IMG/VR virus record: IMGVR_UViG_3300029987_000011
Location: 1 to 49,642 of that record
Source: a virus
Strand: one strand, 5' to 3'
Length of the DNA: 49,642 bases
Of the stretch, positions 2,678 to 21,565 are shown one piece after another. The notes under the pieces were generated by a model, which saw only the letters and a program-made list of their open reading frames with translations, searched no databases and had not been told where the DNA came from. A program made the translations under genes and the position numbers. Position 1 is the stretch's first letter. Every line of letters starts with the position of its first letter.

Positions 2678-3874
2678 ATGCTCGGATTTGAACATCTACT
2701 CTTTCCCTCTCCCGCCAAGCCGATCATCCGCTGTTCCGAACTGGAACAGGTGTTGAGTTGTCCCGGCTCGATCGTGCTGAAGCGTCTGGTCCGGTCGCGA
2801 GCCGGCAGTGAAGGATTCGAGGGGACGGTGCTGCATTACCGGATTGCCGCGCAGCTCATGGCCGAACTTGGCGCGTCGAGTGGCAACGCGACCGGACTCA
2901 TCCCGCCCAACGTCCCGGCGGGCTTCAAATTGTCCAAAGGATCAGAGTGGATCATCCGCTACTGCGTCGCGCTCGTCCGCCACGCCGCGCCGCCGGGTGA
3001 CAGTCTGGAAGTAGAGGCACCCTTCGCGTATAGTTTCGACCGGTGGACGCTCTCCGGCCACCTCGACGTTTCGTGCATCGACCAGGAGGCGACGCGCGCC
3101 GCGGGCTGGGATTGGAAGACGGGGCGCAAGCCGGTCTCTCCCGCGGTCTGCAACAGTCAGGCGCTCGGCTATATCGTACTGCAAAAACGTGCCTGGCCGA
3201 CGTTGCAGCAAGCCGAGTTCTCGATCGTGCAACCGCTCAACAACGAGGACGAGGGCGATGAACGCATCACGACGACTCAGGTGGAAGGCGCCAAGCTCGA
3301 TGCCTGCGTAAAGTACCTCGACGAACAAGTGTGCGACGCGCTCGACCGCTCGGGCGAGGTCATCAGCGGGCTCGCGCAATGCGATTGGTGCCCGGTCGGC
3401 ATCCAGTGCCCGGCCATACAAGCGGAAATCGAAGCCATGAAAATCAACCTGACCCCGGAAATGCTGGCGAAGATCACGAAAGAACCCAACGACGCGCTGC
3501 TCGGCGATATGGTTATTGCCGCGCGCACGATCTGGCGCGCCGTCGACGATGCCGAACGCCTGTTGCATGCGCGCCTCGACAAAGTACCGCAAATCACCTC
3601 GGGCGCCGGCGTCCAGATTACGCGGACCGTGATGGGCGGCCGCTACACCGTGCTCGATCCGGTCGCGTTCTACGCGGGGCTCAAAACGATTGCGGACGAG
3701 GACAAGATTGCCGCGGTCCTCTCCTATCCAGTGACGCGCATCAAGGATCTGATCGCGGAGGAAATGGACATCCCGAAAACGGGCAAAGCCGAATTGACCG
3801 CCGAATCGGTTTTCCAAGGCAAGTTTGGTCCGCTCGTCGAGCAAACGAAACGCCGGCAACTCATCTTCAAATGA
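2678..3874 (+). CDS. PD-(D/E)XK exonuclease with Fe-S cluster motif (DUF2800/RecB/Cas4-like)
   Basis: 398 aa, preceded by AGGAG. The nuclease core shows a helix ending in LH (H53), D130 in GHLDVSCID, and the D-x-K pair in GWDWKTGRK (D145, K147), as in RecB/Cas4-type nucleases. One N-terminal cysteine (C28 in LSCPG) and a C-terminal C-x2-C-x5-C (C235, C238, C244) fit the [4Fe-4S] 'iron staple' of the AddB/Cas4 group. The C-terminal ~140 residues resemble the DUF2800 phage family. Next to a RecT gene this is most likely the 5'-3' exonuclease that makes single strands for annealing. Directly followed by another gene with an ATGA overlap. Confidence 0.82.
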   Translation: MLGFEHLLFPSPAKPIIRCSELEQVLSCPGSIVLKRLVRSRAGSEGFEGTVLHYRIAAQLMAELGASSGNATGLIPPNVPAGFKLSKGSEWIIRYCVALVRHAAPPGDSLEVEAPFAYSFDRWTLSGHLDVSCIDQEATRAAGWDWKTGRKPVSPAVCNSQALGYIVLQKRAWPTLQQAEFSIVQPLNNEDEGDERITTTQVEGAKLDACVKYLDEQVCDALDRSGEVISGLAQCDWCPVGIQCPAIQAEIEAMKINLTPEMLAKITKEPNDALLGDMVIAARTIWRAVDDAERLLHARLDKVPQITSGAGVQITRTVMGGRYTVLDPVAFYAGLKTIADEDKIAAVLSYPVTRIKDLIAEEMDIPKTGKAELTAESVFQGKFGPLVEQTKRRQLIFK

Positions 3875-4131
3875 CGACCCCGTTCTACAACCATTTTGCC
3901 GCGGCGGAAAAATCCTCGCCGATGCCATGGGCGGACGCCAAGCACCGGGAACGGTTTCTCGATGCGTTTTACGCGGGCGGCATGGCCGTGATGACGTTGC
4001 TCCGCGACGCCGACACCGAAGAAGAGGCGGAAGCGATGTTCTTCCGCCTGACGCAAGAGATGGACGCGCGCATGGAGGTGATGAACGCCCGCATCACCGC
4101 TGCCGCGAAAGGATCTGCCGATGAAAACTAA
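3871..4131 (+). CDS. Small hypothetical early protein
   Basis: 86 aa, start overlaps the exonuclease stop (ATGA) and its own end overlaps the next gene by 11 bases. Mostly helical with an acidic segment (DADTEEEAEAMFFRL) and Met-rich amphipathic helices. No family recognised. The tight coupling to the recombination pair suggests co-expression. Confidence 0.65.
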   Translation: MTTPFYNHFAAAEKSSPMPWADAKHRERFLDAFYAGGMAVMTLLRDADTEEEAEAMFFRLTQEMDARMEVMNARITAAAKGSADEN

Positions 4132-4450
4132 ACCTCCCACCGTCGACGCGGCCCGCGCCGAAGGACTCGCCGCGGCGCAGGTCGCCGCCGAACACGCCGG
4201 CGAAACCTGGTTCCAGTGGGCCTACACCGCCTTTTGCTGCTACGCCCGCGCGGATTTTCTCCGCGAGTTCACCACGGAGGACGTGCGTTTCTCCGATCCT
4301 TTGCTGCCCGTAGCCCCGCCGGACGCCCGCGCCTGGGGCCACGTCGCCCAGCACGCCAAACAGTCGGGCATCGTCGAAGCGTGCGGCTTTTCGCCGGCGC
4401 GGTCCTCGCACGGCTCACCCAAAACCCTCTGGCGACTGCGCCTCCACTGA
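4121..4450 (+). CDS. Small phage protein with winged-helix-like C-terminus
   Basis: 109 aa. The C-terminal half (DARAWGHVAQHAKQSGIVEA then SSHGSPKTLWRL) follows a pattern common in small phage replication-region proteins: a helix pair, then a basic 'HG-P…WR' wing. The N-terminal half contains an aromatic helix (WFQWAYTAFCCYARADFLREF). A role in DNA binding is plausible but not shown. Confidence 0.6.
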   Translation: MKTKPPTVDAARAEGLAAAQVAAEHAGETWFQWAYTAFCCYARADFLREFTTEDVRFSDPLLPVAPPDARAWGHVAQHAKQSGIVEACGFSPARSSHGSPKTLWRLRLH

Positions 4451-4474
4451 AAACCCAAAACAGGAGTCACGACC

Positions 4475-4882
4475 ATGGCAAAGAAAACACCGGCCGAAGC
4501 GGCCCCGATCCGCCCGCCCCTCAAAACGGAAATGTCCTTGCGCGTTAATTACAGCGAAAAGGAACTGTTGGAAATCGGCAAAAAACTGGCCGAGGCCAAT
4601 CGGGATTTGGAGAATACCGAGAGCGAGAAAAAAGGCATCACGGCGACGTTGAAAGCGAAGTGCGACTCGATCGCCTCGCGCATCCAGCAACACAGCGGCG
4701 AATTGACCAACGGCTATACGTTTCGCGCCATTGCCTGCGAGGTGCGCTATGATTCGCCGACGAAGGGCATGAAGACGACGCAACGCCTGGACACCAACGC
4801 GACGATTTCCACCGAGGCGATGACCCTGGCTGAAATGCAGGGCGAATTGGGCTTGGTCGAAGTCGCCGACGATCCGCGCTAA
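4475..4882 (+). CDS. Coiled-coil hypothetical protein
   Basis: 135 aa. Residues ~25-75 form a charged helix with heptad character (ELLEIGKKLAEANRDLENTE), then a small beta-containing C-terminal part. AGGAG lies 7 bases before the ATG. No family recognised; similar small coiled-coil proteins are common in phage recombination operons. Confidence 0.65.
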   Translation: MAKKTPAEAAPIRPPLKTEMSLRVNYSEKELLEIGKKLAEANRDLENTESEKKGITATLKAKCDSIASRIQQHSGELTNGYTFRAIACEVRYDSPTKGMKTTQRLDTNATISTEAMTLAEMQGELGLVEVADDPR

Positions 4883-4886
4883 TTCC

Positions 4887-5270
4887 ATGAAACCGGCTGC
4901 ACCCGAACAATTCCGCATCACCCCGCCGCTCGCGCTCCGGTTCGGTATCCCTCCCCGCATGGCCTCCGACGAATCCTTCGGCCGCAACGGCGTCTTCTAC
5001 ATCCCCTGCGTGCGCGAGGTGCTGCACTGCATTGCGGCCGACGGGCTCGGCTGGGAACACGTCAGCGTTTCGCTGCCGCACCGCTGTCCGACGTGGGACG
5101 AAATGAACTTCGTGAAAGCGCAGTTTTGGGACGAGACCGAATGCGTCGTCCAGTTTCATCCGCCGAAAAGCGAGTACGTGAACGTGCATCCGTACTGCCT
5201 CCATTTGTGGCGGCCGACCGTGGAAAAAATCATTGCCCCGCCCTTCTACTTCGTCGGGCCAAAATTATGA
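4887..5270 (+). CDS. DUF7694-like phage protein
   Basis: 127 aa. The central block WEHVSVSLPHRCPTWDEM, then FW…ECVVQFHPP…YVNVHPYCLHLWRP, matches my recollection of a small phage domain (DUF7694 type) often encoded in early regions. Its biochemical role is unknown. Stop overlaps the next start (ATGA at 5267-5270). Confidence 0.65.
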   Translation: MKPAAPEQFRITPPLALRFGIPPRMASDESFGRNGVFYIPCVREVLHCIAADGLGWEHVSVSLPHRCPTWDEMNFVKAQFWDETECVVQFHPPKSEYVNVHPYCLHLWRPTVEKIIAPPFYFVGPKL

Positions 5271-6760: not shown

Positions 6761-7125
6761 GCCGCGCCATGAGTGAGCTTCATCTACACGGTTCGGCTTT
6801 TTTGCCCCTGATTCTCAGTGAGGAAACGGCCGTACTGATCCGGTGGCAGCGTCACTGTCACAGCCTGGCTGTCGAGCTGACTGAATCGCTCGATGGCTGG
6901 ATTGCGGCCGCGCACTACTTGCGGAAAGGAGAACCGCGCGGATTTGGAGGGCTATTTGATGTCCCGCGTGGCCCGTATCCATCGCGTGAAGCCGCTGTCC
7001 GCAACACGGTCGCGCATCTGGTACATCACGCTTTGCACATGGGCCTCACGATCAAGGAGGCCGGGCGACTCTATCGTGCCGCCGGCGTGCCGATCCCACC
7101 CCGTTGGCCCAATAATTACAGATGA
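6757..7125 (+). CDS. Hypothetical early protein
   Basis: 122 aa from a GTG that overlaps the previous stop (GTGA); an in-frame ATG at 6769 is the alternative. Helix-rich, ends with a basic, Pro-rich tail. No family recognised. Its stop overlaps the helicase start (ATGA at 7122-7125). Confidence 0.55.
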   Translation: MSRAMSELHLHGSAFLPLILSEETAVLIRWQRHCHSLAVELTESLDGWIAAAHYLRKGEPRGFGGLFDVPRGPYPSREAAVRNTVAHLVHHALHMGLTIKEAGRLYRAAGVPIPPRWPNNYR

Positions 7126-10100
7126 GCGACGCGCCGCTCTTCCTCGATTTCGCCGACGACCTCGATCCGGCGGCGGTGTTCGCCAATGCCGCGTATTTGC
7201 TGCGCGACTACCAAAACGACTGTCTCGCCGCGATCAGCGCCGCCTGGGCCGAGGGCTTGTCGCGCATCCTCGCGGCCATGGCCACGGGTTGCGGCAAGTG
7301 TCTCGGCAGAGGGACGCCCATCCTGATGTTCGACGGATCAATCCGCAACGTCGAGGACGTGCGGAATGGCGAACAACTGATGGGGCCGGACTCGAAGCCG
7401 CGCAATGTGCTGTCGGTCTGCCGCGGATCGGAACGCCTTTTCCGTGTCGTCCCGACAAAAGGACAAGCTTACGTTGTCAACGAGAGTCATATCCTTTCGC
7501 TCAAGATCACAGGAAAGCGCCGGGTTTCGCTTGGGTGCGAGAAATTCGGTGGGGGCTCCATTGCCAATGTGAGTGTGTGCGACTACCTCGCCTCGTCCAA
7601 GAATTTCAAGCATTGCGCGAAAGGATGGAGGGTCGGAGTCGAGTTCAACGCTCGTGAGATTCATCCCGACCTGCCGCCTTATATCCTTGGGGTGTGGCTT
7701 GGGGATGGAGGTTCTAGGGGGGACGGATTTGCTACGTGCGATTGGGAAATAGCCTTTGCGCTCACTCAGTATGCGAAGTCATTAGGGCACCATATCCGTT
7801 GCGACCAAACCGGGGACAAGTGCCCGATGGTTCACGTCACGACACGAGTAAAGCCGGGCCGCGGAATCAGGAATAACCGCTTCAAGCGGGCACTGCATGA
7901 ATTGGGTCTTTTGGGCAACAAGCACGTTCCGTTCTCCTACAAGTCGAATACCCGCGCGGTCCGCTTGGAAGTGCTGGCTGGATTGCTCGACACTGACGGT
8001 CATCTCGGCAGTGGATCATGCTATGACTTTATCAATGCCAACGAGACAATTGCTGACGACGTTTGCTTTCTCGCGCGCTCGGTTGGACTCGCAGCCTACA
8101 AAACGCCCTGTCGGAAAACGTGCGGGAACAATGGAGTTTCCGGCGATTATTTCCGGGTCTGCGTTTCGGGAGAGACTAGCATCGTCCCTTGCCGGATCAA
8201 GCGACAGATCGCCCATTCACGTCGGCAGAAAAAGGATGCGCTTGTAACCGGGTTCACGGTCGAGCCTGTCGGGGTCGGCGACTACTATGGATTCGAAATC
8301 GACGGCGACCGCCTTTTCCTGCTTGGCGATTTCACGGTAACGCATAACACGATTATTTTCTCCCAGGTCGCGCGTGAGATGGTGGCGGCCGGCGGGCGCG
8401 TGCTGATCCTCGCGCATACCGAGGAACTGCTGGACCAGGCCGCCGACAAACTCGAACGGTCGACCGGCCTCGTGTCCGAGCGCGAGAAGGCGGCCGAGTC
8501 GGCGTCGCTCCAGGCTTCGGTGGTGATCGCGTCCGTGCAAACACTGACCAAGCACACCCGGCTTTGCGGATTCCCGGACGATCATTTTGCGCTCGTCGTC
8601 GTCGACGAGGCGCACCGGTCCCTCGCGCCCTCGTACCTGAAAATCCTGAATTATTTCCACTTCGGCCGTCAGTCGCTCGCGGCGGATTGGAAGGCACCGG
8701 CGGTCGGGGAACCCTACGCGCACAAAGCCAAAATCCTCGGCGTGACCGCGACGCCGGACCGCGGCGACAAGCGCAGCCTCGGCCGGTTCTATCAGCGCAT
8801 CGTGTTCGACTACGGGCTCCTGCCGGCCTGCCGTGCGGGCTACCTCGTGCGCCCGATCTCCGTCCAGATCCCGCTGCGCATTGATCTCCGCAACGTCAAA
8901 ATCAGCCGCTCGCCGCACGGTGCCGACTTCGACGCGAAGGAATTGTCTGTCCGCATTTCCCCGTTTCTCGGCGAGATTGCCCGGCATGTCTTCGCCCGGG
9001 CGGGGGACCGCAAAATCGTGCTGTTCCTGCCGGGGGTCGAAACCGCCCGGCTCATGTCCGAGGCGTTAAATGCCGCTGGCATGGTCGCGCAGTTCGTTTC
9101 GGGCGCCTGTACCGACCGCACGGAGAAAATGGCTTGGTTCGCCCGCGCTGGCCGGGGACACGCTATCTGCAACGCGATGCTGTTGACGGAAGGTTGGGAC
9201 TGCCCCGACGTGTCATGCGTGTGCGTCCTGCGTCCCACCAAGCTCGCGGGGCTGTACCGGCAATGCGTTGACGAGCAAACGGAGATACTGACGCGCGACG
9301 GCTGGAAGCGCGACGTTGCCGTAGGCGAGTCCGTCGCTGGCTTCGACATCCAGACCGGAAGCCTCAACTACGTGCCAGCGCAAGAGGTATTCCGCCGGCC
9401 GCTCGCGCCGGAGGAAAGGTTCGTCGCGATCAAGGCCCAGAGCTGCGATATTCGCGTCACGGAAAACCACCGGATGCTTTACGACCACGCTGGGCGGACC
9501 GGATGGAAATTCAAAGAAGCTGGCAATCTCGCCTCATTGCGAGACACCTCGATTCTACCGTGTGCGGGCGTTTGGGACGGAGCCGTAGGGGTTCCACTAA
9601 CCGACGACGAACTGAGCTTCATCGGCTGGGCAATGACCAACGCGCATATCAATGAGAAGACCGGGGGAATTGTGATTACCCAAGGCGAACATCGCCCGTG
9701 GCTTGAGCAAATCGAAACCTGCATCCGCGGATGCGGCTTCAAATTCACACAGACGAAGCGAGAGCGGCGCACCTCGCAATTCAAGTCAAACAGTCTGGAT
9801 GTTAATTGGACAATCTCACGCGGCGAACCGCGCGGCAGAGACAAGCACCTGCGCGGCTGGGGTGCCTTGGCTCCATGGCTCTCGAAAAGTTTCGCGGAAC
9901 CACTCATGTCCCTGTCGCCGGTTCAATTTGACGTGCTTATCGAGGCGATGCACTTGGCGCATGGGGCCAAGCAAGAGGGACAGACATGGACTCGGCGAAG
10001 CTATCACATCCACTGCGGGCGGCATCGGCAGCAGGCGGACCGGCTGCAAATCGTTGCGTTGCGGTGCGGCTGGCGCGCGACCGTATCAATCCACCAGTGG

Positions 10101-10949
10101 AATGGGCATGAGCAATTTATTGTCCGGCTCAAACGGCAAAACTTTGTCCGCGTGGGCGGTCATGTCGGAGATCGTCCGTCGTGGAAATTCGAGCCGGGAA
10201 CCGGTGAGCAATGTTGGTGCGTCAAAAACGAACTCGGCACGTTAGTAACTCGCCGAAACGGCAAGGTTGCCATCGTGGGGAATTGCGTTGGCCGCGGAAC
10301 CCGCACGCTGCCCGGCGTGCTGGATGGTCTGAATACCCGTGCCGAACGACTGTCTGCCATCGCAGCGTCTCAAAAACCCGACTTGATGATTCTTGATTTC
10401 CTCTGGCTGTCCGACCGGCTCGATCTGATCGAATCCGTCGACTTGGTAGCGGACCGGCCGGAGATCCGTGCAGCGATGAAAAAGGCGGTCGACTTGAAAA
10501 TGCAGGGGGGCGATTTGATCAGCCTGTTCGAAGTGGCCGAACACGATTTACTCAAATCGCTGGAAATCGCGGCCCGCAAACACGCCAAAAAGAATGCGCG
10601 TGTCATCGACCCGCTCGCCTGGGCGGTCAGCCTGGGCGACGACCAACTCCTCGGCTACGAACCGATTTCGCAATGGGACGAACTGCCGATGACGGCGCCG
10701 CAAGCCGCACTCCTCCACCGTAACGGCATCGACGCCGCCCCCGTCACCTGCCGCGGCATGGCCTCCAAGTTGATTGACCGGGTGGTGCAACGGCACCGCC
10801 TGGGGCTCTGCACCGTCAAGCAACTGGAACTGTTGACCCGGCTGGGCGTCGCCGATGCCGCGTTGTTATCGCGCGCGGAAGCGACGACCATGATCGGCTC
10901 CAACCTCGCAGACAAACGCGACCAACGAGCTTATGAGCGACTCCATTGA
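7122..10949 (+). CDS. SF2 DEAD/DEAH-box helicase precursor containing two inteins
   Basis: 1275-aa precursor: 585 aa of helicase interrupted by two inteins. Extein motifs in order: Q-like/N-terminal RDYQ, motif I MATGCGK|T (split by intein 1), Ia AHTEELL, II VVVDEAHR, III GVTATPDR, IV KIVLFLP, V LTEGWDCPDV, VI YRQ|CVGRGTR (split by intein 2). The C-terminal ~200 residues are family-specific. This layout fits RadD/UvsW-like SF2 translocases that remodel branched DNA. Neither half of the split P-loop or motif VI can work unspliced, so both inteins must be removed for activity. It sits between small early genes and the replicative ATPase, with an ATGA overlap upstream and a 17-base overlap downstream. 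Confidence 0.9.
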   Translation: MSDAPLFLDFADDLDPAAVFANAAYLLRDYQNDCLAAISAAWAEGLSRILAAMATGCGKCLGRGTPILMFDGSIRNVEDVRNGEQLMGPDSKPRNVLSVCRGSERLFRVVPTKGQAYVVNESHILSLKITGKRRVSLGCEKFGGGSIANVSVCDYLASSKNFKHCAKGWRVGVEFNAREIHPDLPPYILGVWLGDGGSRGDGFATCDWEIAFALTQYAKSLGHHIRCDQTGDKCPMVHVTTRVKPGRGIRNNRFKRALHELGLLGNKHVPFSYKSNTRAVRLEVLAGLLDTDGHLGSGSCYDFINANETIADDVCFLARSVGLAAYKTPCRKTCGNNGVSGDYFRVCVSGETSIVPCRIKRQIAHSRRQKKDALVTGFTVEPVGVGDYYGFEIDGDRLFLLGDFTVTHNTIIFSQVAREMVAAGGRVLILAHTEELLDQAADKLERSTGLVSEREKAAESASLQASVVIASVQTLTKHTRLCGFPDDHFALVVVDEAHRSLAPSYLKILNYFHFGRQSLAADWKAPAVGEPYAHKAKILGVTATPDRGDKRSLGRFYQRIVFDYGLLPACRAGYLVRPISVQIPLRIDLRNVKISRSPHGADFDAKELSVRISPFLGEIARHVFARAGDRKIVLFLPGVETARLMSEALNAAGMVAQFVSGACTDRTEKMAWFARAGRGHAICNAMLLTEGWDCPDVSCVCVLRPTKLAGLYRQCVDEQTEILTRDGWKRDVAVGESVAGFDIQTGSLNYVPAQEVFRRPLAPEERFVAIKAQSCDIRVTENHRMLYDHAGRTGWKFKEAGNLASLRDTSILPCAGVWDGAVGVPLTDDELSFIGWAMTNAHINEKTGGIVITQGEHRPWLEQIETCIRGCGFKFTQTKRERRTSQFKSNSLDVNWTISRGEPRGRDKHLRGWGALAPWLSKSFAEPLMSLSPVQFDVLIEAMHLAHGAKQEGQTWTRRSYHIHCGRHRQQADRLQIVALRCGWRATVSIHQWNGHEQFIVRLKRQNFVRVGGHVGDRPSWKFEPGTGEQCWCVKNELGTLVTRRNGKVAIVGNCVGRGTRTLPGVLDGLNTRAERLSAIAASQKPDLMILDFLWLSDRLDLIESVDLVADRPEIRAAMKKAVDLKMQGGDLISLFEVAEHDLLKSLEIAARKHAKKNARVIDPLAWAVSLGDDQLLGYEPISQWDELPMTAPQAALLHRNGIDAAPVTCRGMASKLIDRVVQRHRLGLCTVKQLELLTRLGVADAALLSRAEATTMIGSNLADKRDQRAYERLH
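7299..8348 (+). mobile_element. Intein 1 (350 aa, LAGLIDADG homing endonuclease type) in the helicase P-loop
   Basis: Starts with Cys (CLGRGTPILM, splicing block A), has block-B-like NESH, and ends FTVTHN followed by Thr as the +1 extein residue, all hallmarks of class 1 inteins. Excision rejoins GCGK with T to restore Walker A. The middle holds two LAGLIDADG-type motifs, ILGVWLGDGG and LAGLLDTDGH, both with their acidic residues, so the homing endonuclease looks intact. Insertion between K and T/S of a P-loop is a recurrent intein site in ATPases. Confidence 0.93.
9264..10283 (+). mobile_element. Intein 2 (340 aa) in helicase motif VI, endonuclease apparently degenerate
   Basis: Begins with Cys (CVDEQTEILTRDGW, block A), carries a block B TENH, and ends VAIVGN with Cys as +1 residue (CVGRGTR). 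The penultimate residue is Gly instead of the usual His, a known minority variant. The central region aligns by eye with LAGLIDADG motifs but both catalytic aspartate positions are changed: FIGWAMTNAHI (Asn where Asp is expected) and LIEAMHLAHGAK (His where Asp is expected). So splicing residues are kept while the endonuclease is probably dead. Confidence 0.9.
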
Positions 10950-12753
10950 TGATTTTGATTTTGCCGACGATCCGCCGGCCGATCCGCCCCTCCATCTTGT
11001 TCCTCCCGAGATTGAGCCGCCGGTCGTGTGGGAACACAGCAGCGACCCAGGCCAGAATGGCTTTGCGCTGTACGAAACGGCGGCGAACGCCACGAACGGG
11101 CACGCGCGGCCCGAACTCTTCAGCATGACCGCGGAACGCAACGTGATTTCCTGCTGCGCGCTCGACGGCGCCGATGTCATCCGCCGCTGCCTGCAAGCCG
11201 GTTTGTCGCCCGCTTCCTTTTACTTCGCCGCTCATGGGGTGATCTTCCGTTGTCTGCTCCGACTCTACGAACGAAACGCGGCGCTCATCGACGCGTCGTT
11301 ATTGTACGAGGAGCTGTTGAAAACCGGAGAACTGGACGCGGCCGGCGGCCAGCCGGTGTTGACGGAAGCGACCGCACCCATGCCGACGACCATTCAAGCC
11401 GGCTATTATATCGAACAGGTCCACCGGTATGCGGTGATGCGGGCATTTGTCCGTACCGCCGGCTCCCTCGTCGAAGAATGTTACAACCATTCCGGGGACA
11501 TCACGGAGTTTGCCGCTTCAGCCGAGGCGGCCATTGCGCAGGTCGTCCGCACGGCGCGCGAGGCGAAAGCGGTGGGGGTGCTAACGCCGCTCCTTGATTA
11601 CCACTACCCGGAGACGGATGACCCCGGCATCTTGCTCGGCAGTGACGACTATCTCGGCCGCGGCGGCGGCATGTTGTTCGTGAGCTATGCGGGCATCGGC
11701 AAATCCTCGCTCATCATGGACGCATGTTTACAGTGGGCGCTCGGACGGCCCTGGATGGGGCTCCGCAGCAACGGACCGCTGCGCTGTCTCATTATTCAAT
11801 CCGAGGACTCCGCCCGGTATCTCGGCAAGGTTGCCGATTCCTTCGCGTTTTTCGAGGAACTGACCGCCGCGGAAATTGAGCAAGTCCGGCGCAATTGCGT
11901 CACGATCCAGCTTCGCGGCATCAGTGGCGCCGAGTTTTTCGCCGAGCTGCGACGGCTCCTCGACATTTATAATCCTGATTTGCTCGTGATCAATCCGCTC
12001 TACCTTTTCGCCGAGGGTGACATCGCGAAATCGGAAGACATTCAACCGTTCCTCCGGCAACTCGACGCGCTGAACCCGATGCGCTTCGGTACGATCCTCG
12101 TTCACCACACCGGCAAACCCGCCGCGAAGGGCAACAACGGGAAGCGCGCAGAGCTGGAAAATTGGGAGACGACGTACATGGGTTTCGGTTCGAGCTATCT
12201 GGCCAACTGGCCGCGCTGTTCCTGCATGCTCATGCCGAAAGCCGGCTCAGGCTCCCGCTTCGCGCTGAAGCTCGGCAAGGGCGCACCAAATGCCGGCATC
12301 ACGCGCCAGGTGCCGCAAGGTGCCGGCTACCGGCTGGAATCCGTGAATCACATCAATATCCGGTACAGCTCCCGCCAGGTGCTCGTTAACGGGGTGGGGA
12401 AAAAATCCTACTATTGGGAACTCGACGAGGATCAGAGCGAAGAGTCGGTCGAGGACAAAGCGCAGGTTGAGGGCGCGAAAAAGCGAAAGCGGAGAACGGA
12501 CTATCCGGCCATCTCGTTCCGCGATGTATTCATGCGCGTCTGCCCTTCCTTCGAAAAACGGGAAAGTTTCTCTGCGATTAGGAAGGAAGCCGTCGAGAAA
12601 AAGGGCGAGCAGGTTAAAGGCGGCGTTTTTGTACGGGTCATGCGAGAAGCGATCGACGAAGGACTACTCATAAAATACCCCGACGATGGGATGTACTACT
12701 GTTCACCGTTTCTGATCGGAGAATTGCCGCTGCCACCGCCAGAGAGTAGTTGA
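10933..12753 (+). CDS. DnaB-N-domain / RecA-like (RepA-type) replicative ATPase
   Basis: 606 aa. After an acidic, Pro-rich N-terminal tail (1-60), residues ~66-165 match the DnaB N-terminal helical domain (AERNVISCCALDG…). A RecA-type ATPase follows: Walker A YAGIGKSSL at ~252-260, a Walker-B strand PDLLVINPL (Asn where Asp is usual), and LVHHTGKP as the later sensor motif, all typical of the AAA_25/RepA group. The C-terminal part has a basic linker (KKRKRRTD) and a winged-helix-like end. Probably the phage replicative helicase or helicase loader, acting at the origin. It overlaps the helicase gene by 17 bases. Confidence 0.82.
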   Translation: MSDSIDDFDFADDPPADPPLHLVPPEIEPPVVWEHSSDPGQNGFALYETAANATNGHARPELFSMTAERNVISCCALDGADVIRRCLQAGLSPASFYFAAHGVIFRCLLRLYERNAALIDASLLYEELLKTGELDAAGGQPVLTEATAPMPTTIQAGYYIEQVHRYAVMRAFVRTAGSLVEECYNHSGDITEFAASAEAAIAQVVRTAREAKAVGVLTPLLDYHYPETDDPGILLGSDDYLGRGGGMLFVSYAGIGKSSLIMDACLQWALGRPWMGLRSNGPLRCLIIQSEDSARYLGKVADSFAFFEELTAAEIEQVRRNCVTIQLRGISGAEFFAELRRLLDIYNPDLLVINPLYLFAEGDIAKSEDIQPFLRQLDALNPMRFGTILVHHTGKPAAKGNNGKRAELENWETTYMGFGSSYLANWPRCSCMLMPKAGSGSRFALKLGKGAPNAGITRQVPQGAGYRLESVNHINIRYSSRQVLVNGVGKKSYYWELDEDQSEESVEDKAQVEGAKKRKRRTDYPAISFRDVFMRVCPSFEKRESFSAIRKEAVEKKGEQVKGGVFVRVMREAIDEGLLIKYPDDGMYYCSPFLIGELPLPPPESS

Positions 12754-15538: not shown

Positions 15539-18500
15539 TCACTTCGCCGGCAGCGCGTCAATGGCCTGCCGCAGCGCATCCCGCTCATTCCGTGACCTGT
15601 CGCGAAGCGGGAGCGAGACGCCGGGACCGAGCCGGCGGATCTCCGCCTCCGGCCATGTCCGCAGGATGTAATCCTGAAGGTAGGGCTCGTTCAACAGCGC
15701 GGCTTGCTCGTCCGCGGTGAATGGCAGTTGGTGCTGGGCCTTGCGGATGATTTCAAACCCCATCACGCGCAGCGCGGCATCTTTCGCTTTGCCCGGTGCG
15801 TTCGCACGATCTGCTGTTTCGTAGAGGCCGCGGTTGGAAACCTTGAGCCACCGGCCGAGGAGGTTGGAGATACCGGGCTGCGCGAGGAGTTTTTCGATGC
15901 CCTCCTTGGGCGGATCGTAAATGCTCTCGTCGCCGAAGCGGGTAATCAACGTGCCGCCGGCCGCGTTCCAAGACCATTTGGCCATGGCTTCCGTGCCCAT
16001 GCCGGCGTCGAATTCGTTGACCGGCACAATCGCCCGCCCGCGAAACGTGTCGTAAGGATTCTCTTTGTTGACGGCGAACTGCAACCAAGCATAGCCAACC
16101 GAAAAAATCGGATTCACGCCGGGCACTTGTCCACCGGCAAAGCTCAACGGTCCCTCGCCACCTTGGCCCAAGGTCAGTGACCGCCGCAGGAGTCCATTCC
16201 CCAGGCGCTCACCTTCCTCCAACGGCATCCGAAAATAGAACACTTTGCCCAGCGCCTTGTCGGTCCAGAATAGCGGGAAGCAATGGTAATTGCTTTTGTC
16301 ATACTCGGAAATCGACGCCAGCATGTCCTTGTACCGTTTGCGCAGCGCCGCCGGAATCAGCTCGTCCGGGAACATGTCGTTTTCGAGCATCCAGAGCACG
16401 ATGGTCGTGGCCGCGGTATAGACGGCGAACTTGGCGAACATCTCGCCGGGGGAACGCTTCCACGCCCGCCACTCCGAGCGCAGACCTTCTTTCGCCGGGT
16501 TATAAAACATGAAACCAAAGTCGAGCAGATTTGCTCCCTTCCCTCGCTCAAGAAAATTCGGGGAGCCGGCTGAATCGTGGATGATCCGCATTTTGATGAC
16601 CTCGGACATCGTTGGGAAATGCTCGTCCATGTACAGCATGCCGGCGATCTTCACCATGCGCTCGTTGACCTGGCCGCGCTGTTTGTACCAGACCCAAATC
16701 TTTTCGAGCTGCTTTAGCGCACCAAGATTCTTGGCGCGCCACGTCTCCGGGATTTGCGAGTACCGCAGCAACATCCGCTCAAACGTACTATCGGCGGCAT
16801 CTTCCCCGCGCGTATCAGCTTCACTGATGACGACGCCCCGTTGAAGCGCCATGTCGCCCAGCGCGTTCGGCCGGTTTGAGACGGTGGCGGCGGCGGCGGC
16901 CCGCGCCTCGCGCAGATACCGCACGACCGCGTGTTTGCCGAAGAGCAATCGCGCTTCCGGCATCTTCCGGGCAAACCCGCGGATGTCGCGGTACGTTGCC
17001 ACCGGCCAGAACCCATAATTCCAGCCGGTGTAAAGCGATTTGATCGCCGCCACTTTCCGATAAATCTTTCCGATCAATCCGGCCTGAAGTCCGTCCGATC
17101 TCCCGAACGCTTCGGCAATCGCGCGCGGCACATAGTACGCCATGACCTTTCCGCCATGCGTGTAAACAAGGGTGCCGATCCGGTCGTTTTCGCGGATGAC
17201 CGGTTCACGATAACGCCCGTTGTAGCGCATTTCGGCCTCGGCAATGAGCGGGTCGCCAGACTCCAAAAGGAACTGCACGATTTCATGGATCGCCACGGTC
17301 CGATGCGTCATGGCAATGAGCGACATCGCCTTTTGAATGGTAGCCGTCGCCGCGTTCTCAATTTCACCCAGGAAGCCAACTTGCTTGTAAATCTGCGCGG
17401 AAACGCCCGCGCCGTACTGTCCTTCCAAGGCCGCCTCGATGCTGTTGCGATCGAGGGCGGCGCCGGCCGGGGCCTTCTTCATCGTCGCGTAGAAAGTCCG
17501 TTCCCAGAGAATCGCCATCAACTGAGGATCGAGAATGTTTGCCGCCGCGAGTGGCTTCAAAACCAAGTCCTCATAAATGGCCCGCAGCGTGCGCTGGCCC
17601 TGTTCAAGACTCGCGTAGCGGGCGGGGCCGAGCTGTTGCGCCATGCCGGCCATGGCTTCCGTGGCAGCCTTGGGGTTCATGCCGCCCGAGCTGGCGATGT
17701 CCGGCCGGTTGTGGATGACGTGCTGGAAAAACATATACTGGCCGAGTTCAACCCAATCGAGATTTGCGCGGACGAGCGCCCCCAGCACTTCGAGGTTCAA
17801 CCGCCGCAACAGCAGTTCGTATTTGGTCGCGCGATATAAGTAATTCCCAATCGCACCTTCCGTCTTCAAGCCGGGTTCGGTGAGTTTGGCTTGTTTGATC
17901 CGACGATAGACCGGGCCGAAGGTCCGATCAAAAAACATGCGCCAGTCGTCGAGCTGTTCCTGAAACGGTTTGATCCCGGCGACCTGTTCCCTTTCCAGCG
18001 CCGTTTCTTCCGCGCGCTGCCAGGAGTCGGTCAGATTGCGGATGCGCTCGCGCTGCACGGTCCCGGTTTTGATATCGTCCTGAATTTTATAGTACAGTTT
18101 GTGAATCTCCGGCTTGGCGGCGAGGTAGTTGAAAAAGGCTTCGTAGAACAGCGGAGCCCGCTGGAGGACCGCAGCCGGGTTGTTGAGGAGAACGCTGAAT
18201 GTCTCGGCGTACATTTCCGCCGGCGGTTCAAAGTAGTCCTCCATCGTTTTCGTGCCGCGCCACCACGCGATGAGCGGCCGGAGTTCGTCTTTCATTTGCT
18301 CCAGCGCGAAGAGCCGGCGCTTGCGGATCTCTTCGACGAGGAGTTCCGCATAGAATTCCTTTTCGCCCTTGGTCAGATTGGCCAGCTTGTCGCGGTTGAA
18401 TGCGAACCAGTCGGAAATTTTCCCGCGGACGGCGGAGCGCACGAGTTCCTTTTTCTGCGCCGGGTTGAGCGACGCGACGAAATCATAGAGCCCCGGGTCG

Positions 18501-21500
18501 GCGTCGCGCGCGGCCGGATTGCGCCAGATATTCAGGATCTCATCAGCGGTGACGCCCGGCTCCTGCTTGGGATCAATCCCGGCCTTGTCGCGCTCGGCCT
18601 GGGCGAGCTTGGAGGCTTCCCGGCGCAAGCGTGCCCGGTCCGCTGCGGTCAGTTCGCCGAGGGCGCCCGGCTTTTCCGGCAGGATCGTTTTCGTGAATCG
18701 CTTCAGGCTGGCGATGCGGCCGAACAGATTGCCGCGGCCGGAAATCATCTTGTCCGGGAGCCAGTCAACCGCGTGGCCGATCTCATGCCAGATGACCTTG
18801 GAGGCGAGGACGGGGTTTTTCAGCTTCGCCGCTTCAAAGGCCGCCTGATAGAGATCCGCGTATTTTTCCGCTGCAACCCGGGCCTCGTCAACGGTCGGAT
18901 CGGCCGCCTTCGTCGCCGACGCGTATTCGGCGGCGTGCTGGCGCATCAGGCGCTTTTCGGCCGCGGTAACGAGATTGAATACGTCCGCGCGCAGTTCGAT
19001 GGAGGCGAGGCCGGTCAGGCCGTCGGTATGTTTGAACACGCCAAGCGCCTGACCTTTGAGCGCGCGGATCTTGTCGAGGACGGCCGGATATTTCCCGCCG
19101 AGGAGTGCCCTCGCGAACTGCACCGCTTCCGGTAGTTCGATCGGGAACACGGTAAAGTTGGGGTTGTTCGCCGGCTGCGAGGGATCGCCGAGATCGCCGC
19201 CGATGCCGGAGCCGGGCGCGGGCTCGATGTTGCCTTCGACGCCGCCGCGGGCCGCCGCGTTCGCCTTGTCCATCTCCGTCGGCGGCGTGCCCTTCACTTC
19301 ATCCCCGAACATCGAAGGCGTGTTGTCGACCGGGAGCGATTTTTCCGCCGCAGATTTTTCAACTTCGCTGGCCAGGCTAAACGTGTCGGCGGTGTTGAGT
19401 AGGTCGCCGGCATCCGGTGCTTTGTTAACATCCGTGTTAACACTCGCCGGGGCATCGACGGACGCGGGAGCGGTTTTGTTAACACTCGTGCTAACATCCT
19501 CGTGCGGGGTCAACCCCGCTTCCCGTCGCAACTGTTCGAACGTCGTCGGTGAAGGGTTGTGCAGTTCGGCGTTGGCCGCCTTCAGTTCGTCGACCCGCGT
19601 TTGCAGGGCGGCCGGATCTTCCACGGGGAGCCCCATTTTGCGGGCGGCCTCGGGACGCTTGGCGGCGCCTTGCGCGGCGAGGATCAATTCCGAGTTCTGG
19701 CGGATCTTCTCGGCCTGCACCTTCGCGACGGCATCCGCCTCTTTTTCAAACGCAGCAAAATCGCCGCCGATGTCACCAAACCCCATTTGCTCCGTGCCGG
19801 CGGGTTGAGCGGTGCCCGTGAGCCGCGAGAGGTTGCGCGCGTAAAGCTCCAGCTCGGCCGGACTCTTCTGTTTGGCCCCGCGGATCGCGCTGGCCTGGGC
19901 CGCTTCATTACCCGGTGCGCCGCGGGCTATTGCGACCGCTTTCGCTTCGACGATCTGACCGTTTTGATAGAGGGTGAATAAACCATCGCCGGCATCGTGG
20001 CCCAGACTGAAGCCGGCGCTTCCTTTATAGCGCGATAGTAGTCCTCGCGCGTCTGCAACTGCGCGGGTGTTGAGGTCGCGGGTGGCTCGGAAATACTGGG
20101 CATAATCTTTGATGTCTCCTTGTCCGTCTTTGATGTTGGATTCGGCGTCATAGATTTGGGCATGGACTACGGTGAAACCATCCGCCTCGTTAAACTGATA
20201 AGCGATGATAGATTTTTCGCCTGAATCTTTCGCTGATGCGAAACGATGGCGGCCGGTGATGATTTCCTTTTCCCCGTTCAGCTTCTTCCACAGTACGATG
20301 GGCGCCACGCCCTCGGGGATGTATTTGCCGAGCGGGTCGACCACGCCCGTCACCGGATCAGCGTTCGCCTTGAACTGCTTGATGTCCTTGTTGACGACGA
20401 TTTCGGACAGTGGGACTTGCTGCGGGGTGTACTTGTCCGGGTCCGGCGTCGTCGCGACGTTTTTGGAAAGGACCAGGGCGCCTGGGGTAAGCGGTTTCGG
20501 AACCCAATCGGTCAACGAATCCTCCCGCTCGCCGGTGGCCGGCATGCCGCCGCCTTGGTCAAAGATGGAATAGTCGATGGGTTCGTCCGCTGGCACCGCA
20601 GGACCGCCGAGCGGTGCCGCAGGGACGCTGATCGGGCCGGTGGGGGTCGTCACCACCACCAGCGCGCGCGCAGGCGGGATTGGCGCGGGAACGGAGGCCG
20701 CGCGCACGTCCACGGGCAGGGGCACATCGAGTGCGGTCGGGGTGGGCGCTGCTGGCTCGGGGGGAGTATCCGGCGGCGCCACGGGCGGACCTTTCCCATT
20801 TCGGGCGGTGCGGGCGGCGGCAATGAATTCCTCGTCGCTCATCGTCCAAACGCCGGTTGCCTTCCGCATCTGCAACAAAGCCGCTTTCTGCGCCAGGGTC
20901 ATCGCCGCCGATTCGAACCCGCCGGCGCCAGCGCCAAAAAGTGTCGACCAGGCGGCGGTCTTGGCGACTTCGGACCAGTTCACTTTGCCCTCGTCGATAA
21001 CCTGAGCCGTGACTGAGCCGGCGGTTCCGATGCCGGCGCCTTGCGCGGCGCGCACTGCTACTGCTTGGGGAATCGCAATGGCGAGCCGGCCGCCTGCGAA
21101 CAGGCGAGTCGGCGCCAACTTGCCGAGCGGAATCGCGCCCATCACCGTAGAAACGGTGAGCTGCCCATAGCTGGGCGATGTGCGTTCGCCACGGAACGCC
21201 TCCCGGGTTTGCGCCAATGCTTCACCGGCCAAACCACCCGCACCGCCTCCGATATATGTGCCAGCGCCAGGAACAACCGAACCCGCTATCGCTCCGGCAA
21301 TCGGCGCGACAACCCTGATCGCGAGATCCGTCTTCTTCCCGCCGAGGGTGAGTGCTGGATCATCAATCCAGTCGGGAGCCATTCCGGGCACAGCAATTCT
21401 CGTCTGTCCGTAGTGCGGGTTGATCTTCCGCTTGTCGGCAATAAATTCGGCCGGAGTCGGAGGCAAAGAAAACTCGGCGCTGAGATCGACGGGCGCGGGC

Positions 21501-21565
21501 GCGTCGAATTCCGCGGACAGGTCGACGGGAGCCGGCGCCTCAAACTCGTCAAGGAGGTTGGGCAT
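15539..21565 (-). CDS. Giant polyvalent virion protein (ParB-like, zincin-like, LPD38-like), probably ejected with the DNA
   Basis: 2008 aa, last gene of the late operon. Visible parts: an N-terminal duplicated segment (DAPAPVDLSAEF); a Gly-rich hydrophobic stretch near 84-115 (VVAPIAGAIAGSVVPGAG); a ParB/sulfiredoxin-like domain at ~375-560 with EKEIITGRHRFASA near 435; a zinc-protease-like helix KVIWHEIGHAVDWL with HExxH at ~927; and a C-terminal region resembling the large polyvalent protein domain LPD38, with a hydrophobic helix at ~1711-1726. Polyvalent proteins of phages join several enzymatic domains and are delivered into the host. Position and size match T7 gp16-like ejected proteins; the exact roles of each domain are inferred. 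Confidence 0.82.
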   Translation of the reverse strand: MPNLLDEFEAPAPVDLSAEFDAPAPVDLSAEFSLPPTPAEFIADKRKINPHYGQTRIAVPGMAPDWIDDPALTLGGKKTDLAIRVVAPIAGAIAGSVVPGAGTYIGGGAGGLAGEALAQTREAFRGERTSPSYGQLTVSTVMGAIPLGKLAPTRLFAGGRLAIAIPQAVAVRAAQGAGIGTAGSVTAQVIDEGKVNWSEVAKTAAWSTLFGAGAGGFESAAMTLAQKAALLQMRKATGVWTMSDEEFIAAARTARNGKGPPVAPPDTPPEPAAPTPTALDVPLPVDVRAASVPAPIPPARALVVVTTPTGPISVPAAPLGGPAVPADEPIDYSIFDQGGGMPATGEREDSLTDWVPKPLTPGALVLSKNVATTPDPDKYTPQQVPLSEIVVNKDIKQFKANADPVTGVVDPLGKYIPEGVAPIVLWKKLNGEKEIITGRHRFASAKDSGEKSIIAYQFNEADGFTVVHAQIYDAESNIKDGQGDIKDYAQYFRATRDLNTRAVADARGLLSRYKGSAGFSLGHDAGDGLFTLYQNGQIVEAKAVAIARGAPGNEAAQASAIRGAKQKSPAELELYARNLSRLTGTAQPAGTEQMGFGDIGGDFAAFEKEADAVAKVQAEKIRQNSELILAAQGAAKRPEAARKMGLPVEDPAALQTRVDELKAANAELHNPSPTTFEQLRREAGLTPHEDVSTSVNKTAPASVDAPASVNTDVNKAPDAGDLLNTADTFSLASEVEKSAAEKSLPVDNTPSMFGDEVKGTPPTEMDKANAAARGGVEGNIEPAPGSGIGGDLGDPSQPANNPNFTVFPIELPEAVQFARALLGGKYPAVLDKIRALKGQALGVFKHTDGLTGLASIELRADVFNLVTAAEKRLMRQHAAEYASATKAADPTVDEARVAAEKYADLYQAAFEAAKLKNPVLASKVIWHEIGHAVDWLPDKMISGRGNLFGRIASLKRFTKTILPEKPGALGELTAADRARLRREASKLAQAERDKAGIDPKQEPGVTADEILNIWRNPAARDADPGLYDFVASLNPAQKKELVRSAVRGKISDWFAFNRDKLANLTKGEKEFYAELLVEEIRKRRLFALEQMKDELRPLIAWWRGTKTMEDYFEPPAEMYAETFSVLLNNPAAVLQRAPLFYEAFFNYLAAKPEIHKLYYKIQDDIKTGTVQRERIRNLTDSWQRAEETALEREQVAGIKPFQEQLDDWRMFFDRTFGPVYRRIKQAKLTEPGLKTEGAIGNYLYRATKYELLLRRLNLEVLGALVRANLDWVELGQYMFFQHVIHNRPDIASSGGMNPKAATEAMAGMAQQLGPARYASLEQGQRTLRAIYEDLVLKPLAAANILDPQLMAILWERTFYATMKKAPAGAALDRNSIEAALEGQYGAGVSAQIYKQVGFLGEIENAATATIQKAMSLIAMTHRTVAIHEIVQFLLESGDPLIAEAEMRYNGRYREPVIRENDRIGTLVYTHGGKVMAYYVPRAIAEAFGRSDGLQAGLIGKIYRKVAAIKSLYTGWNYGFWPVATYRDIRGFARKMPEARLLFGKHAVVRYLREARAAAAATVSNRPNALGDMALQRGVVISEADTRGEDAADSTFERMLLRYSQIPETWRAKNLGALKQLEKIWVWYKQRGQVNERMVKIAGMLYMDEHFPTMSEVIKMRIIHDSAGSPNFLERGKGANLLDFGFMFYNPAKEGLRSEWRAWKRSPGEMFAKFAVYTAATTIVLWMLENDMFPDELIPAALRKRYKDMLASISEYDKSNYHCFPLFWTDKALGKVFYFRMPLEEGERLGNGLLRRSLTLGQGGEGPLSFAGGQVPGVNPIFSVGYAWLQFAVNKENPYDTFRGRAIVPVNEFDAGMGTEAMAKWSWNAAGGTLITRFGDESIYDPPKEGIEKLLAQPGISNLLGRWLKVSNRGLYETADRANAPGKAKDAALRVMGFEIIRKAQHQLPFTADEQAALLNEPYLQDYILRTWPEAEIRRLGPGVSLPLRDRSRNERDALRQAIDALPAK

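Follow-up and report, generated by a model that had tools for sequence, protein, structure and literature searches.

Two inteins in a single helicase have been described for mycobacterial DnaB (PMC6195587) and for haloarchaeal MCM (PMC10643990), and two-intein terminases are known from cyanophage Mic1 (PMC7156551) and from a crAss-like phage (PMC7886860). In M. smegmatis DnaB, one intein (DnaBi1) occupies the P-loop and the other (DnaBi2) a second functional motif, with a working endonuclease in only one of the two (PMC6195587). Inteins inserted at the GK^T of P-loops, where the caret marks the junction, are found in both phages and bacteria, TerL1-a of the mycobacteriophages being an example (PMC5050341).

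The helicase gene described here comes from IMG/VR record IMGVR_UViG_3300029987_000011, which is classed as linear and whose 49,642 bases are referred to below as the window. Like M. smegmatis DnaB, it has a P-loop intein and another in a second functional motif, with a predicted working endonuclease in only one, but the roles are exchanged: the DnaB P-loop intein is of class 3 and lacks an endonuclease (HEN), whereas in the present gene it is the P-loop intein that is predicted, from its motifs, to be mobile, and the second is endonuclease-dead. DnaB also belongs to a different helicase family. As in the Mic1 and crAss-like terminases, two inteins are found in a phage ATPase, though here in a helicase rather than a terminase; an endonuclease domain is likewise present in only one of the two Mic1 inteins, but the second Mic1 site lies in the nuclease domain. 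The P-loop intein sits between the Walker A Lys and Thr, as do those of the TerL1-a type. The reading preferred here, at a probability of about 92%, is that of a phage SF2 helicase gene carrying two independently acquired protein-splicing elements, the first with an intact and the second with a dead endonuclease, whose splicing would yield a 585-aa helicase.

The precursor gene and its surroundings

The helicase-intein ORF starts with ATG and extends from 7122 to 10949 on the plus strand (as do all features below unless otherwise indicated), encoding 1275 amino acids with Pfam matches to ResIII (4e-19), DEAD and Hom_end_hint (5.5e-17) and a match to PHROG 16, DNA helicase (E 2.8e-58). The 59-aa N-extein (7122-7298) ends in the GCGK of Walker A (7287-7298). 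The 350-aa intein 1 (7299-8348) begins with Cys1 and ends in THN, and its +1 residue is the Walker A Thr (8349-8351). A 305-aa middle extein (8349-9263) follows, containing Walker B (DEAH), motif III (TATPD) and the motif V region (LLTEGWDCP) and ending in LYRQ; the 340-aa intein 2 (9264-10283) then runs from Cys1 to VGN with a +1 Cys, and the 221-aa C-extein (10284-10946) begins with the CVGRGTR of motif VI. Both sets of junctions are in frame (MATGCGK^CLGRGT...TVTHN^TIIF for intein 1 and LAGLYRQ^CVDEQTEIL...AIVGN^CVGRGTR for intein 2), and motifs I, II, III, V and VI are all present in the exteins, which when joined give the predicted 585-aa spliced product. The third-position GC content is 65% and 68% in the two inteins as against 88, 83 and 74% in the N-, middle and C-exteins, a difference in keeping with the inserts having been acquired later.

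The extein protein is an SF2 helicase of the RadD-like kind, RadD itself (6jde) being the closest solved protein by profile. In public genomes, the nearest relatives of the middle extein are from Opitutaceae and other Verrucomicrobia (L110 and L111, 51-52%; L112, 45%), and the C-extein is 46% identical to its verrucomicrobial homologues; L110, L111 and L112 read ATGTGKT or ATGLGKT at Walker A and QA(V/A)GRGTR at motif VI, with no inserts. The insert boundaries are thus not a guess, since intein-free homologues read through both sites, as ATG(C/T)GKT and Y-x-Q-(M/A/I)-x-GRG-x-R, without a gap. A first census covered viral and bacterial collections and comprised 129 homologous loci. Of these, 117 are intein-free at both sites, six have an intein at TG^CGKT and two at LY^CQMVGR, and the other four are intein-free at Walker A with a truncated or unreadable motif VI; both inteins together were found in none of the 129. 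A second set of 75 loci, mostly more distant, added two that are interrupted at Walker A; none of the 75 carries two inteins. No insert-lacking homologue keeps insert residues as part of its helicase domain, a comparison that had been set beforehand as a possible refutation.

An earlier note, made from the sequence alone, had proposed this ORF as one phage helicase gene with inteins of 350 aa at GCGK^T and 340 aa at Q^CVGRGTR. The ORF is present with its ATG start, and both insertion points proved correct to the codon. Splitting the ORF at the proposed residues also returns the predicted product length of 585 aa. The overall picture of two inteins in one phage helicase is supported by the family matches, the intein-free homologues, the intein-bearing relatives and two confident models.

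The gene lies among others for a RecT/Bet-like annealing protein (1328-2482) and a PD-(D/E)XK exonuclease (2678-3874), both in the same early module, and it is followed directly, with a 17-base overlap, by one for a DnaB-like helicase with DnaB N-terminal and AAA_25 domains (10933-12753). An integrase gene is also found among its neighbours. This company places the helicase in a recombination/replication module, and the record looks like a temperate phage, its host, judging by the helicase, perhaps one of the Verrucomicrobia. Elsewhere in the window, positions 1-83 are a run of some 80 C with only a few other bases among them, which probably arose as an artefact in sequencing or assembly, and a 2008-aa ORF on the minus strand (15539-21565) has no Pfam or PHROG match.

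Two inteins of separate origin

Intein 1 scores 63 bits against Hom_end_hint (cut-off 32.1) and has the splicing residues C1, NESH (61-64), THN ending at residue 350 and a +1 Thr. Its AlphaFold model (mean pLDDT 90.3) has a Hint fold, with PI-SceI (1ef0; Foldseek E 1.3e-25) as the best match among solved structures. PI-SceI, the yeast VMA1 intein (Pfam Hom_end_hint/Hom_end), has the same combination of Hint and two-motif LAGLIDADG domains, though it is longer (454 as against 350 aa), only about 20% identical, and not housed in an SF2 helicase. The two LAGLIDADG motifs of intein 1, YILGVWLGDGG (7680-7712) and LAGLLDTDGH (7974-8003), have kept the catalytic Asp136 and Asp233, which are invariant (in WLGDG and LDTDG) across 13 aligned sequences; it is thus a PI-SceI-type intein whose mobility is predicted from these intact motifs.

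Forty relatives of intein 1 were found in viral contigs, nearly all at the G-x-G-K^T/S of unrelated ATPases (SF2 helicases as well as P-loop ATPases of the DnaB-like and other kinds); all those whose contig includes the N-terminal side have a Lys^Thr or Lys^Ser junction. The closest of these inteins are 53-55% identical to intein 1, but the identity drops to about 27% in the surrounding middle helicase pieces (55% and 27% in the case of L048), which points to horizontal transfer. A tree of 26 inteins splits those at K^T from those at G^CGKT at a branch supported at 100/99, and it places intein 1 with the K^T-site inteins of other helicases, apart from the six found at G^CGKT in the helicase clade to which its own host protein belongs. 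These six, also PI-SceI-like, interrupt TG^CGKT in homologous helicases of Bacillota and phages (L044, L119, L124, L149, L159 and L178), their site lying three codons upstream of that of intein 1. Their separation in the tree suggests that a different lineage of the same intein type invaded three codons away.

Intein 2 is less easily recognized by standard models. Its Pfam Hint score of 12.2 bits is under the cut-off, no curated intein model, including those of NCBIfam, gives an above-threshold match, and PF14890, run over the whole record, misses both inteins; the identification of intein 2 therefore rests on its relatives and its structure. The AlphaFold model (pLDDT 88.1) has a Hint fold and matches archaeal VMA inteins (TliVMA intein, 7qsu; Foldseek E 2.3e-12), and one relative, L098, passes intein_Nterm TIGR01445 with 29.8 (cut-off 24.5). 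The splicing residues are C1, T66ENH69, G339-N340 and a +1 Cys, with C1, T66, H69, C319, G339 and N340 invariant across the relatives; the penultimate Gly, in place of His, is the rule in this family. The closest relatives, 52% and 47% identical, are the motif VI inteins of L096 and L097 (IMG/VR), homologous helicases of the same clade whose middle pieces are only about 42% identical to the one here; these two have no P-loop intein, have intact endonuclease motifs, and carry their inteins at LY^CQMVGR, two codons upstream. Other relatives lie at Q^CIGR of the SNF2-type L098, LYVQQ^CGRGTR of L099 and LH^CQKIGRG of L102, at motif V of two helicases (L100 and Salinibacter phage L092), and in other phage proteins (L103 and, more distantly, a portal, a polymerase and a methyltransferase); a repeat alignment scan with the same pattern for further relatives of intein 2 yielded nothing more. 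By sequence, intein 2 is a member of a family of phage SF2-helicase motif V/VI inteins.

Both LAGLIDADG motifs of intein 2 are degenerate: FIGWAMTNAHI (9618-9650) has D126N (9639-9641) and G127A, and IEAMHLAHGAK (9939-9971) has D233H (9960-9962), where relatives have FIGWVLSDGSI and LEAIHFGDGAK. The catalytic DG is intact in L096, L097 and L098, whereas intein 2 has lost both Asp residues, a point absent from the earlier note, and so should splice but not cut DNA. Its +1 Cys is not seen in any of 123 intein-free homologues, which have M, A or I at this position, so that it probably came in with the intein; that an intein may carry a splicing-friendly residue in its conversion tract is an idea also raised by others (PMC11855218).

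Splicing, homing and other readings

In class 1 splicing, an acyl shift at Cys1 is followed by attack by the +1 Thr or Cys and by Asn cyclisation. Both inteins would leave the precursor by this chemistry, with the three exteins joined into the 585-aa helicase. In the mature enzyme, the Walker A Thr binds Mg2+, and both Walker A and motif VI are needed for the binding and hydrolysis of ATP, so that the precursor and the singly spliced forms are expected, from established SF2 biochemistry, to be inactive. The same Thr would serve as splicing nucleophile of intein 1 and, later, as metal ligand, a double role reported for the P-loop Ser of DnaBi1 (PMC6195587).

The endonuclease of intein 1 would let it home into GxGKT alleles that have no intein. 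Intein 2, without homing of its own, would persist because its imprecise loss kills the helicase; alternatively, intein 1, at a distance of 915 bp, may start repair tracts on which intein 2 hitchhikes by co-conversion. In haloarchaeal MCM, homing by each of two adjacent active inteins is impeded by the other (PMC10643990), so that a dead second endonuclease may even make homing of intein 1 easier. A stricter coupling, in which the dead intein 2 spreads only by hitchhiking on the repair of intein 1 or is kept as a splicing switch on a recombination helicase, seems doubtful.

One form of this, that the immobile intein 2 was retained to act as a post-translational switch, releasing the helicase under some condition such as redox acting on the catalytic cysteines, is improbable in its own right. 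It would suit the dead endonuclease and the strong conservation of the C-terminal splicing block, which at 70% identity to L096 exceeds the N-terminal splicing part (48%) and the endonuclease region (52%), and there is a precedent in M. smegmatis DnaB, where the redox-responsive intein of the two is the P-loop one that lacks an endonuclease (PMC6195587). That sensitive intein, however, is at the P-loop, unlike intein 2, and no conserved extra sensor was found here. Moreover, by lineage-specific counts the endonuclease region, its catalytic residues apart, has not clearly decayed more than the N-terminal splicing part, which fits a recent loss of homing as well as it fits domestication; dead second motifs are seen in L099, L100 and L103 as well. 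Region-wise dN/dS, as a measure of domestication, yielded no estimate of selection for intein 2, the synonymous sites being saturated. The earlier note had raised splicing that depends on conditions, but nothing here argues strongly for regulation over plain mobile-element biology.

Still less probable is that one intein no longer splices, for instance through its shifted site or changed +1 residue, leaving a dead gene and a phage that uses another helicase. Intein 2 does lie two codons from the site of its relatives, with a +1 Cys foreign to intein-free homologues, and the DnaB-like gene directly downstream could supply a helicase; but the frame is open over 1275 codons with all splicing residues conserved, Cys is the usual +1 nucleophile of the intein 2 family, and the intact extein motifs are not what would be expected of a dead gene. 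Finally, the chance that the inserts are ordinary accessory helicase domains is negligible, and this candidate was rejected: one of them parts Lys from Thr in Walker A and the other interrupts motif VI, homologues without them read straight through at both places, the relatives of each occupy unrelated proteins, and both models match solved inteins.

How unusual the pair is, and what it means

The earlier note had called two inteins in conserved motifs of one phage protein unusual. Within the helicase clade this holds, since a search of viral and genome collections, taking in about 200 helicases from the clade and from neighbouring groups, gave no close relative with both, though records very near to this one may lie outside its reach; more widely it needs qualifying, as is seen from the published terminases and from several phage helicases in the viral collection, so that the present gene is a clear and rare but not unique case. 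The nearest parallel is L098 (1550-5308 of IMGVR_UViG_3300048839_000424), an SNF2-type phage helicase in which the same two sites are occupied, GTGK^T by one intein and Q^CIGR by another. The second is homologous to intein 2 (about 35%), but the host protein is of another SF2 subfamily, the P-loop intein is from another family, and the relative of intein 2 has intact endonuclease motifs.

Three other phage helicases, L052, L054 and L069, have one intein at GAGK^T and another just after motif VI. Inside the latter, in the +1 frame, lies an HNH endonuclease ORF of 240-297 aa (L052, 5903-6820; L054, 3758-4675; L069, 2402-3343) matching PHROG 374 HNH at E 4e-23 to 7e-26. Of the 61 substitutions between L052 and L054 in the middle of the insert, 42 fall at the third codon position of the HNH frame, which indicates that constraint acts on this hidden frame. 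For a non-intein insertion, a hidden HNH has already been published (PMC11855218); the flanks here look like a real intein splicing domain. Two inteins are also seen in a further IMG/VR ORF (L090, containing 4001-5011), cysteine-peptidase-like by eye, the second of them distantly related to intein 2.

Motif VI of SF2 helicases is thus an intein site in addition to the well-known one at Walker A, and a single phage gene can have both filled, as in the present case and, by a different set of inteins, in L098. Within the same helicase clade, homologous inteins occupy positions a few codons apart, three at Walker A and two at motif VI. The natural pairing in one gene of an intein with an intact-looking endonuclease and one whose endonuclease is dead is well suited to tests of sequential invasion, loss of homing and hitchhiking.
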